NCBI GenBank assembly: GCA_017435385.1
Contig: JAFSFB010000001.1
Span: 1-64,000 of the forward strand
DNA: 64,000 nt
DNA from: Clostridia bacterium
GTDB lineage: Bacteria > Bacillota > Clostridia > Oscillospirales > Acutalibacteraceae
Reading direction: 5' to 3'
In this document: piece by piece, positions 59,718 through 64,000 of the stretch
How positions within the stretch are numbered: position 1 is the first letter of the stretch
How the letters are laid out: each line of letters begins with the position of its first letter
Position numbers and translations under genes: made by a program
The notes under the pieces: generated by a model
The model's input: only the letters and a program-made list of their open reading frames with translations
Databases searched by the model: none
Told to the model about the DNA's origin: nothing

Positions 59718-59783
59718 ACGGGCGATTCGTGAATCGCCCCTACACATAATTGCGCATTACGCATTCCGAATTACGAATTGAAA
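59718..59783. repeat. Dispersed intergenic repeat, palindrome plus GCATTACG segment
   Basis: GGGCGATT-CGTG-AATCGCCC (59720-59739), CCTAC, then GCATTACG/GAATTACG strings. The palindrome matches that of the composite element at 58.6 kb and the tail matches the fragment at 2.0 kb. Confidence 0.85.
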
Positions 59784-59795
59784 CAGAGGTGCAAT

Positions 59796-61238
59796 ATGTC
59801 ACAGACCTCAAACCTAAAAACCAATCCCGATGCATGTCCGCTTGCCAGAAAGTGCGGCGGCTGTCAGCTTCAGAACATGACCTATGACCGCCAGCTGAAG
59901 TGGAAGCAGGCAAGATGCGAAATTCTGCTGAAAAAATTCGGCAAGGTTTCAAAAATCATCGGTATGGAAAACCCGTATCATTATCGCAACAAGGTTCAGG
60001 CGGCATTCGGCAGAACAAAAAGCGGAAAAATCATTTCGGGAGTCTATCAGTCGGGCAGTCACCGCATCGTTTCGGTTGACTCCTGCATGACCGAGGATGA
60101 AATTGCCGACAAGATCATCGTCGATATCCGCAGCATGATTCCGAAATTCAAGATATGGACCTATGATGAAGACAAGGGCACGGGCTTTCTGCGCCATGTT
60201 CTCGTCAAGAGAGGCTTCTCGAGCGGAGAGGTCATGGTTGTCATCGTCGGTGCAAGCGGATATTTCCCGATGAAGAAAAAGTTCACCGCCGCCCTGCTTG
60301 AAATGCATCCCGAAATAACAACCGTTGTTCTCAACATCAATTCCAAAAACACCAACCTTGTTCTCGGCGACAAGGAAGAGGTTCTTTACGGCGACGGATA
60401 TATCGAGGACACCCTCTGCGGCTGTGTTTTCAGAATCTCTCCCAAATCTTTTTATCAGATAAATCCCGTGCAGACCGAAAAGCTCTATAACAAGGCGATG
60501 GAATTTGCCTGCCTTGACAAAAGCACGAGAGTTATTGATGCATATTGCGGAATCGGCACGATCGGACTCGTTGCCGCAAAAACGGCTGGTGAGGTCATAG
60601 GCGTTGAGCTCAATCCCGATGCTGTCAAGGATGCGATCTCAAACTGCAAGCGCAACGGAATGAAGAACGCAAAATTCTTCTGCGCCGATGCAGGCGATTT
60701 CATGGAAGCTCTTGCCGAAGAGGGTGAAAGCGCAGATGTTGTTTTCATGGATCCTCCCAGAGCAGGCAGCAGCAAAAAATTCATTGACTCGCTGACAAAA
60801 ATGGCTCCCGAAAGAATTGTTTATATCTCCTGCAACCCCGAAACCCTCGCACGGGATCTGCAGCTGATCGTCAAAAAAGGCTATGCCGTCAAAGCGATCC
60901 AGCCCGTTGATATGTTCCCCCACACAAACCATATAGAAACGGTTGTCCAGTTGTCCCAACGAAAGGCCGACGCATATATCGACATAGATTTAGACCTTGA
61001 TGAGCTGGATATTACAGCCGCCGAAAGCAAGGCAACCTATGACGAAATCAAGGGATATGTGCTCAATAAGTTCGGACTGAAAGTTTCAACATTGAATATA
61101 GCTCAGATTAAAGCAAAACACGGCATCATCGAAAGAGAATGCTATAACAAAGGCAAAGACGGTCACCGTGTACCCAACTGCCCGAAAGAAAAAGAAAACG
61201 CCATCATTGATGCGTTAAAGTATTTTAAGATGGTATAA
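59796..61238 (+). CDS. 23S rRNA (uracil-5-)-methyltransferase RumA/RlmD family, with C-terminal extension
   Basis: A 480-aa SAM-dependent RNA m5U methyltransferase. An iron-sulfur site is given by Cys 14, Cys 20, Cys 23 and Cys 97. SAM motif VIDAYCGIGTIGL (247-259), catalytic region FMDPPRAG (317-324) and nucleophile Cys 346 in YISCNPETLARD follow. The usual protein ends near residue 390 (HIETVVQLS); here about 90 extra residues follow (YDEIKGYVLNKFGLKVSTLNI, then ERECYNKGKDGHRVPNCP). The N-terminal TRAM domain of many members is absent. The start follows GAGGTG; an in-frame TTG six codons upstream is not used. Standard codon use until the end of the extension. Confidence 0.9.
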   Translation: MSQTSNLKTNPDACPLARKCGGCQLQNMTYDRQLKWKQARCEILLKKFGKVSKIIGMENPYHYRNKVQAAFGRTKSGKIISGVYQSGSHRIVSVDSCMTEDEIADKIIVDIRSMIPKFKIWTYDEDKGTGFLRHVLVKRGFSSGEVMVVIVGASGYFPMKKKFTAALLEMHPEITTVVLNINSKNTNLVLGDKEEVLYGDGYIEDTLCGCVFRISPKSFYQINPVQTEKLYNKAMEFACLDKSTRVIDAYCGIGTIGLVAAKTAGEVIGVELNPDAVKDAISNCKRNGMKNAKFFCADAGDFMEALAEEGESADVVFMDPPRAGSSKKFIDSLTKMAPERIVYISCNPETLARDLQLIVKKGYAVKAIQPVDMFPHTNHIETVVQLSQRKADAYIDIDLDLDELDITAAESKATYDEIKGYVLNKFGLKVSTLNIAQIKAKHGIIERECYNKGKDGHRVPNCPKEKENAIIDALKYFKMV

Positions 61239-61274
61239 TTAAATTTAGGTGTTGTCTTTTTATAAGGAGAATAT

Positions 61275-62231
61275 ATGGGAAATGATGCTTATGTACACAT
61301 AGATAAAAAGAATCATTCTGTTAAATCCATTGAAAATCTTTTGTTTATGTTAGATTTTGAAAAGCGTAACGATTTTTATTATTTTGGAAACGATGAAGAG
61401 TATAAGTATTTTTCGGGAGTATGTGTATGGAAATGTGATGAGAACACTGATGAATTGATCTATAGAGTTCGAACACAAATCTTTGCAAGTGGTTATGATA
61501 TAAAGAAACAAAACGATACAATAAGAGCTTTTAAAAAGTATTGTAATGCTTGGTTTGTTGGAGATATGGGGAAAAATCGTTATTTTAAAGTTGAAAAATT
61601 GGTTAAAGGAGCAGAAAGCGGTTGCTGTTTTGCTATTAAAAAATTAGATAACAATTTTTCGCTCTTGTTATATTCGTTAAGCAAATATCCCCTCGACAAT
61701 GAAGGCGAGATACAGATGAGTTCTTGGGGAATCCCCACACCAAGTGTTTTCAATGCTAATGTTTATTTAGCATATCTTTGTTCTTTGATGGAAGACTTTT
61801 TTCGTTCTACTTATGTTGCGCTCTTGAAATATTCAGAAAACAAAGAAAAAATAATTAAAAATGTAAAATTATCTCCGTTTGATTTGATAGATATAAGTAA
61901 TGGTAACAAATCTTTAGAAGAAGCACTCGCAAGAACATTGTCTTTTCAAAACATTAAAAAAATCAACTCCAATTTTATGGATATTGATAAAAAATATGAT
62001 TTGGGAAGAGTACTTAAGAAGCCGTACAAAAACAGAAAAGAATCCTTGTATGAACAAATAAATCGATTGTTTGAATGTCGACACGCAATGATTCATAAAA
62101 CAGAAATAAACGTAGATTACGGAACTGAATCTCTGAAAAAAGATATTACAGATATTAAAGTTGCGTTTAAAAGAGTATATGAATTTATTTGTGAGCAAAA
62201 TGGTTGGATTCCAGAAAATATCATTATATAG
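61275..62231 (+). CDS. HEPN-like domain protein, probable defence component
   Basis: A 318-aa protein of AT-rich codon use with no signal or membrane segment. The N-terminal half is mixed and unrecognised. The C-terminal half is helical and looks like a HEPN domain: YLAYLCSLMEDFFRSTYVAL (165-184, with the acidic ED pair in the first helix) and, about 90 residues on, CRHAMIHK with R269-x4-H274, the RNase motif of HEPN proteins, then a final helix. HEPN RNases occur in toxin-antitoxin and anti-phage systems. An OLD-type nuclease starts 44 bp later on the same strand. The family call is by eye only; an AGGAG site precedes the ATG. Confidence 0.7.
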   Translation: MGNDAYVHIDKKNHSVKSIENLLFMLDFEKRNDFYYFGNDEEYKYFSGVCVWKCDENTDELIYRVRTQIFASGYDIKKQNDTIRAFKKYCNAWFVGDMGKNRYFKVEKLVKGAESGCCFAIKKLDNNFSLLLYSLSKYPLDNEGEIQMSSWGIPTPSVFNANVYLAYLCSLMEDFFRSTYVALLKYSENKEKIIKNVKLSPFDLIDISNGNKSLEEALARTLSFQNIKKINSNFMDIDKKYDLGRVLKKPYKNRKESLYEQINRLFECRHAMIHKTEINVDYGTESLKKDITDIKVAFKRVYEFICEQNGWIPENIII

Positions 62232-62275
62232 AAAACAATGATAAAAAGAAAATATGTGATTAGAGGGAATAAACA

Positions 62276-64000
62276 ATGTATCTCAAGTACATACAAATCG
62301 TAAATTATAAGAATTTAAAATCTTCTGTTTTTAAATTTGATAAGGGTGCTAACACAATAATTGGGGAAAATGATTCTGGAAAAAGCAATGCTATGACTGC
62401 TATTAGAATTTTACTTGATAGTACTTTCTTTTATAATACAAAAAGGCTAAAAGAAAGTGATTTCTCTGATTCATTGGGTGATTGGAGAGGACACTGGATT
62501 ATTGTATCTGCTTTTTTTGATGAAATAACAGATGACGACAAAACAAATGAGATATGTGCAGAGATTATTCCTTCTGAAGAAAACCAAAACTTTTTAAAGT
62601 CTTTCATAAGGTGTGAAGACAACAATTATGGAACGGTAACGCTTTTCATTAGGCCAATCAAAAAAATTCGAAACGATTTACATAAAGCAAAAACCAAAGA
62701 GGAATTTGAACGTATCAGAGCAGGTATTTCGTTAACTGATTATGAATTCTTTTACACATCTCGGTCACAAGCTGATTATACCAATCCGGAAATTTATAAT
62801 GCTTTAGTTGGCGATCTCGAACAGGGCGAATATGTAGATCCAGAAAAAATTGATTATGAGATTATGGGTAATAGAATTGACATTTTGAGCGTTTGGCAAC
62901 ATATATCTTTAGTATTTATTGATGCTTTAAGAGATGTTGAATCTGAACTCAGAAAGCCACGCAATCCTATTAGAAGAGTTTTTGACACAATACAAAAAGA
63001 TGTTGCCAACGAATCAAAAGACTCCATAACTCAAAAGATACAAGAGCTTAACGAAATTATTTCGTCTATTCCGCAGATTTCAAATATTGGTAAGGAAGTA
63101 AACGGAAAACTAAATGAAATAGCTGGACTGGTGTATTCACCGGAGATCAAGGTTGAGTCCAAGTTAAAAGAGAGTATAGACTCTTTAGCAAAATATTTAG
63201 CTGTTTCTCCTTCAAATCAAGATGATGTTGATTCGTTGGGTTTGGGCCATTTAAATATTTTATATATTGCATTGAAACTTGTAGAGTTTGAGTATAACAG
63301 AAATCATGAAATACTCAACATAATGATTATAGAAGAGCCAGAAGCTCATATCCACACACATATTCAGAAAACATTGTTTGATAATTTAAAAGTAGCTAAA
63401 GATTATACTCAAGTTATTATGACAACTCATTCTAATCAAATATCTGAGGTTTCTGATATAACAAAAGTTAATGTGTTGAAAATCAATAATTCAACAACCG
63501 AAGTAATGTATCCAAGTGCTGGATTAGATGATTTTGGATTTGACAGACTTAAACAAAAAGAATTTCCATTGAGTTTGTGTTTAGAGCGATATTTAGATGC
63601 AAAAAGATCTGTTCTTTTGTTTTCTAAAGGAGTAATCCTGGTTGAAGGTGACGGCGAAGAAATTCTATTGCCTGCGTTAGCAAAAAATATATTTGGTGTT
63701 TCGCTCGATGAGTTGGGAATAGGATTAATCAATGTTGGAAGCGTAGGATTTGAGAATATTGCCTCCATTTTTTCTCCGCAACGGTTAAGAAGGTACTGTG
63801 CAATAGTAACGGATTTAGATACCGTAGTGGATGGGGCTGACAAAAGCAATGAAGAAGCTGCAAAACGAGGGGAAACAAGAAAAGAAAAACTTAACAACTT
63901 GTTTTTTGATAATCCTTGGGTTGAAATGTTTTATGCACCATATACATTTGAGGTGGACTTTGCAGCTATCCAAGAAAACCAAGAATTTATCAAAACAATA
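62276..64000 (+). CDS. OLD-family ATP-dependent endonuclease (AAA + TOPRIM), 3' truncated by window
   Basis: 575 codons are visible and the frame is still open at the edge. An N-terminal SMC/RecF-like ATPase starts MYLKYIQIVNYKNLKSSVFKF (residues 1-21) with Walker A GENDSGKS (30-37); LGHLNILYIALKLV is signature-like; Walker B is IMIIEEPEAH with Glu 353/354/356; MTTHSNQISEV carries the switch His. A TOPRIM domain follows with GVILVEGDGEE (Glu 457) and TDLDT (Asp 513, Asp 515). This is the architecture of OLD nucleases such as GajA of Gabija and of retron- or PARIS-related ATPases. An AGAGGGA site precedes the ATG. The codon use is AT-rich like the HEPN gene, suggesting common foreign origin. 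What follows it is outside the window. Confidence 0.88.
   Translation, partial: MYLKYIQIVNYKNLKSSVFKFDKGANTIIGENDSGKSNAMTAIRILLDSTFFYNTKRLKESDFSDSLGDWRGHWIIVSAFFDEITDDDKTNEICAEIIPSEENQNFLKSFIRCEDNNYGTVTLFIRPIKKIRNDLHKAKTKEEFERIRAGISLTDYEFFYTSRSQADYTNPEIYNALVGDLEQGEYVDPEKIDYEIMGNRIDILSVWQHISLVFIDALRDVESELRKPRNPIRRVFDTIQKDVANESKDSITQKIQELNEIISSIPQISNIGKEVNGKLNEIAGLVYSPEIKVESKLKESIDSLAKYLAVSPSNQDDVDSLGLGHLNILYIALKLVEFEYNRNHEILNIMIIEEPEAHIHTHIQKTLFDNLKVAKDYTQVIMTTHSNQISEVSDITKVNVLKINNSTTEVMYPSAGLDDFGFDRLKQKEFPLSLCLERYLDAKRSVLLFSKGVILVEGDGEEILLPALAKNIFGVSLDELGIGLINVGSVGFENIASIFSPQRLRRYCAIVTDLDTVVDGADKSNEEAAKRGETRKEKLNNLFFDNPWVEMFYAPYTFEVDFAAIQENQEFIKTI

Follow-up and report, generated by a model that had tools for sequence, protein, structure and literature searches.

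A complete Gabija system preceded by an orphan HEPN-like gene on a mobile element inserted within rlmD of a gut Clostridia genome

The window analysed here is the stretch of 64,000 nucleotides formed by bases 1-64000 of a 300 kb contig, which belongs to a 2.5 Mb Clostridia genome in 26 contigs; window and contig share one numbering. Near its right-hand end, a gene for an RlmD/RumA-type 23S rRNA uracil methyltransferase (rlmD, 59778-61238, plus strand) is followed on the same strand by two open reading frames that had been singled out in a sequence-only reading and that the ORF list places at the positions claimed. The first (61275-62231) has a ribosome-binding site, AAGGAG, in front of it and codes for a HEPN-like protein of 318 amino acids, and the second (62276-64414, past the window edge at 64000) codes for an OLD-family ATPase/TOPRIM nuclease of 712 amino acids. 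The gap between rlmD and the HEPN-like gene is 36 bp and that between the HEPN-like gene and the nuclease gene 44 bp, and no terminator is predicted on this strand. The turn to AT-rich sequence that had been seen after the methyltransferase gene is plain in the base composition: GC is 0.43-0.51 per 2-kb block of the window up to 60000 and 0.486 over most of the methyltransferase gene (59778-60938), then 0.417 over 60939-61238, 0.292 over 61239-62300 and 0.329 over 62276-64000, a change from 0.49 to 0.29-0.33.

This turn had been taken as the edge of a foreign defence island. Foreign DNA with defence genes does lie here, but it begins at about 60936, inside the methyltransferase gene and some 300 bp before position 61239, where the edge had been drawn. 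A probable left attachment core, GAAACGGTTGTCCAGTTGTCC (60936-60956, plus strand), which marks the start of the element and the approximate crossover, resembles the sequence GAGACGGTATGTCTTTTGTCC near contig position 79504, within the gene for a serine recombinase (contig 77773-79704) that ends in an RlmD-type tail. In ICEs that integrate into rumA, the 3' parts of rumA and of the serine integrase gene are reciprocally exchanged (PMC4701971), and the placing of the foreign DNA start follows from the two similar cores, the RlmD-type recombinase tail and the agreement of the whole arrangement with that report. Judged by sequence, there is one att site in rumA and a second in the recombinase gene, and the 3' ends of the two genes have been exchanged, so that the last ~95 codons of the present rlmD gene, as indicated by comparison with sister genomes, derive from the element. 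Among rlmD copies of sister genomes, similarity to the gene in the window often stops near nucleotide 1161 of the gene, and the length past the DMFPHT motif, counted from HT, is 13-27 amino acids in most sister proteins as against 105 here; a minority of sister RlmD proteins carry an extension to ~105 amino acids, as here. These features identify the island as an element with a serine recombinase that has inserted itself into the housekeeping gene rlmD (rumA). It shares with the streptococcal rumA serine-integrase ICEs the insertion inside rumA/rlmD, the att sites in rumA and the integrase gene, and the swapped 3' ends (PMC4701971), and differs from them in that the host belongs to an uncultured gut Clostridia genus and that no conjugation genes were recognised in the sequence read.

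A second copy of the element is present in a sister genome of the same genus (G010, the goat-colon MAG 'Clostridia bacterium RGIG2007'). The two copies are alike in DNA from inside the methyltransferase genes onward through the cargo, and the methyltransferase genes that host them, both of the RlmD/RumA type, are not the same gene in the two genomes. Behind the extended rlmD of another sister genome lie, by eye, a Fic-like gene and an apparent type I restriction system, which indicates that the cargo at the rlmD site varies. Directly after the first element, contig 82519-88312 holds a second large serine recombinase together with a segregation-like and a relaxase-like gene (functions assigned by eye). 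These genes, and the extension-type tail that the first recombinase still bears, point to a possible stacking of several elements in rlmD.

The classification of the nuclease as an OLD-type ATPase/TOPRIM protein is confirmed by strong Pfam matches (AAA_15, E 3e-29; OLD-like_TOPRIM, E 4e-16) and by the PADLOC model PDLC00072 for GajA (E 9.9e-210). One of two proposals made for this gene was that it might belong to a Gabija-like system whose helicase would lie beyond the window, and the sequence past the edge agrees: directly 3' of gajA, overlapping its end by 8 bp, is a gene for a UvrD-type helicase of 578 amino acids (contig 64407-66143) that matches the PADLOC model PDLC00127 for GajB (E 1.3e-193), and the locus is thereby recognised as Gabija. 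GajA combines an ABC ATPase with a class 2 OLD TOPRIM domain and retains, by motif position, Walker A (residue 30) and the TOPRIM residues E457, G488 and D513xD515, and GajB, an SF1 helicase, retains CPGSGKT (residue 30) and DEFQD (residue 193), of the DEXQD type; the Walker, TOPRIM and DEXQD elements are the catalytic features by which Gabija is defined (PMC10781630). By its sequence, then, gajA with gajB is a complete Gabija system. It resembles characterised systems such as that of Bacillus cereus VD045 in the order of the OLD ATPase-TOPRIM gene and the UvrD-like helicase gene and in the intact motifs (PMC10781630, PMC10822852), and differs in that GajA is a long form of 712 amino acids, nearest to PDLC00072 among the PADLOC models, that it has no significant match to the sequence of any solved GajA at E 0.001, and that a HEPN-like gene precedes it. 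A separate observation concerns the TOPRIM/C-terminal part of gajA (contig 63599-64199), where differences from the sister copy cluster (58, of which 28 are nonsynonymous), unlike the HEPN-like gene and the genes after gajA, which are nearly identical between the copies. Local recombination and fast evolution are alternative explanations of the cluster.

The HEPN-like protein had been put forward as an RNase candidate, and this stands in part. The protein matches the Pfam family HEPN_RiboL-PSP (PF18735) with E 3.3e-4, its residues 163-306 aligning with profile positions 33-190 of 191, at a score of 21.1 bits against a curated cut-off of 28.4 (26.8 bits in a genome-wide search). It contains a single Rx4H motif, R269-HAMI-H274, and the polar residue after the arginine agrees with the motif rule for HEPN domains, Rx4-6H followed in this way (PMC3710099). 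The resemblance to RiboL-PSP-type HEPN toxins, whose superfamily is described in the same work, thus lies in a helical C-terminal half with the Rx4H motif and in a location among defence genes; the differences are the score below the family cut-off, an N-terminal part of ~150 amino acids that has no assignment, and the lack of close relatives. That the protein is instead an unrelated, mostly helical orphan outside the HEPN superfamily is a reading to which we give a minor share of belief. It would accord with the score under the curated cut-off, with the absence of any match in PADLOC, NCBIfam or PDB sequences, and with a model of the domain alone (mean pLDDT 63) that matches mainly generic helical bundles (Z <= 6.2). 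Against it, an E-value of 3e-4 was reached across all of Pfam by a match spanning nearly the whole profile, the R-polar-x3-H motif is typical of active HEPN domains, and the three top structural alignments of the full-length AlphaFold model are all HEPN proteins (5yep_B, Z 8.2; 6m6u_D, Z 7.7; Csm6 8pe3_B, Z 7.2), although that model, predicted from the single sequence without alignment depth, is of low confidence (pLDDT 41). Foldseek searches with the low-confidence models returned nothing below E 0.9. The HEPN assignment, founded on the sub-threshold Pfam match and the R-HAMI-H motif, is tentatively kept as the likely one.

Relatives of this protein are scarce. None were found in 72,556 plasmids, in 50,697 phage records or in IMG/VR, and the only one in GTDB contigs is the sister copy; the IMG/VR and GTDB scans reach close relatives only. 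In genome sets of the phylum (398), the class (291) and the genus (45), the protein occurs only in the source genome and the sister genome, apart from weak matches taken as chance, and the two copies of the gene differ by two synonymous changes and no amino-acid change. Several candidate relatives were discarded. The strongest tblastn hits among the weak matches in the 291 class genomes (L019 and L022, 57% over 35 amino acids) are antisense to a long ORF resembling a peptide synthetase and are thus attributed to chance; a gene that looked HEPN-like by eye (G239, L012:9211-10407) gave nothing in Pfam and no similarity in BLASTP; and two PF18735 proteins from the same order were without real similarity in BLASTP.

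The other proposal was that the HEPN-like gene and the OLD nuclease form a new two-gene combination, with the suggestion that gene order be compared in other genomes. This idea is rejected, given that gajB, which makes Gabija complete, overlaps gajA at its end and that tblastn against every fetched locus returned, besides the element's own copies, only chance-level pieces: a homologous HEPN gene lies beside GajA in none of 34 other GajA loci (95% upper bound 8%, the loci being not all independent). The pairing is known from two copies of one element, and no recurrence in independent lineages was found among the loci compared. GajA relatives at 61, 54, 49, 48 and 38% identity are preceded by a type II methyltransferase, a IIG-like protein or a Fic protein, or lack a close upstream gene on the same strand, and at 19 plasmid and 10 viral-contig GajA loci the upstream gene is AbiJ_NTD4, a DEDDh exonuclease, Shedu, an Abi_alpha-like gene, AbiEii, an integrase, another gene, or none close. 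As a side observation, a 3'-5' exonuclease gene precedes gajA by 30-42 bp on three alphaproteobacterial plasmids (L043, L045 and L049), with the DEDDh/RNase_T profile match confirmed for two of the three; this recurrent pair may be worth a study of its own.

One might still suppose a three-gene variant of Gabija, in which the HEPN-like RNase would contribute to function, perhaps as a back-up effector that GajAB restrains or that fires when GajAB fails. The gene does adjoin gajA on the same strand across a short gap without a predicted terminator, it is retained in both element copies, and other defence-type genes (AbiJ_NTD4, DEDDh exonuclease, Shedu) stand close upstream of GajA genes elsewhere. 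The lack of a homologous pair at the other GajA loci speaks against such a variant, as do the counts of close same-strand neighbours of Gabija, which do not differ significantly between the upstream and downstream sides (9/19 vs 5/19, p 0.31), and the description of characterised Gabija systems as two proteins (PMC10781630, PMC10822852). Full-text literature searches on Gabija together with HEPN listed no paper with a HEPN-Gabija operon in its title or abstract. We judge a functional operon of this kind unlikely, with little weight left to it, and we give still less credence to the broader idea that the long form of Gabija, with a GajA of ~710 amino acids, recruits a swappable upstream effector (HEPN RNase, DEDDh exonuclease, AbiJ-type or Shedu) as a third component.

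The best reading is that the HEPN-like gene is ordinary mobile defence cargo in a variable slot: the protein is found on this element only, it has no homologue at the other GajA loci, and the upstream genes there are unrelated. Some observations weigh on the other side, in that the position of the gene is kept and its protein unchanged in the sister copy, as would also be expected of a working operon, that the HEPN assignment is sub-threshold, and that knowledge of the pair from a single element limits any test of conservation. The sameness in the sister copy reflects mainly recent descent, since nearby genes are almost as unchanged. With good though not full confidence, we regard the locus as the left end of a mobile element in rlmD that carries a complete Gabija system as its first cargo, with an orphan HEPN-like gene in front that does not encode a Gabija subunit.

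Other genes lie further along the element. At contig 66421-68095, on the minus strand and within the defence cargo, a gene for a UppS-like cis-prenyltransferase, an unusual enzyme for such a location, overlaps one of unassigned family; both genes are almost unchanged in the sister copy. A ToxN/AbiQ-type toxin gene of a type III toxin-antitoxin system (contig 69121-69627, minus strand; Pfam E 1.7e-45) follows, and neither an antitoxin RNA family nor a tandem repeat array was recognised upstream of it; an AbiEi antitoxin-like gene lies at contig 75107-75820, with no adjoining AbiEii toxin ORF seen in the ORF list.

As ordinary cargo, the HEPN-like gene would have arrived together with gajAB when the serine-recombinase element inserted inside rlmD. 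Co-transcription with gajAB is probable, and transcription reading through from rlmD is possible, given the short interval without a predicted terminator between rlmD and the HEPN-like gene. GajA and GajB form immune complexes that act on DNA as nuclease-helicase machines (PMC10781630), and their target, according to a preprint, is linear DNA lacking RecBCD (PMC12407980); by analogy, GajA and GajB encoded here would assemble and attack foreign DNA. The HEPN-like protein would be a defence protein or toxin in its own right, one that cuts RNA and arrests growth, and its gene would travel with Gabija.

Gabija and the mobile element inserted in rlmD are both of kinds already known, and the HEPN-like neighbour is an orphan. 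Cooperation of the HEPN-like gene with GajAB would make Gabija modular and not a closed two-gene system, an outcome that the present evidence does not favour. What the locus adds is a further example of a mobile Gabija, from a gut genus that has been little studied and at a known integration hotspot, together with an orphan HEPN-like candidate RNase.
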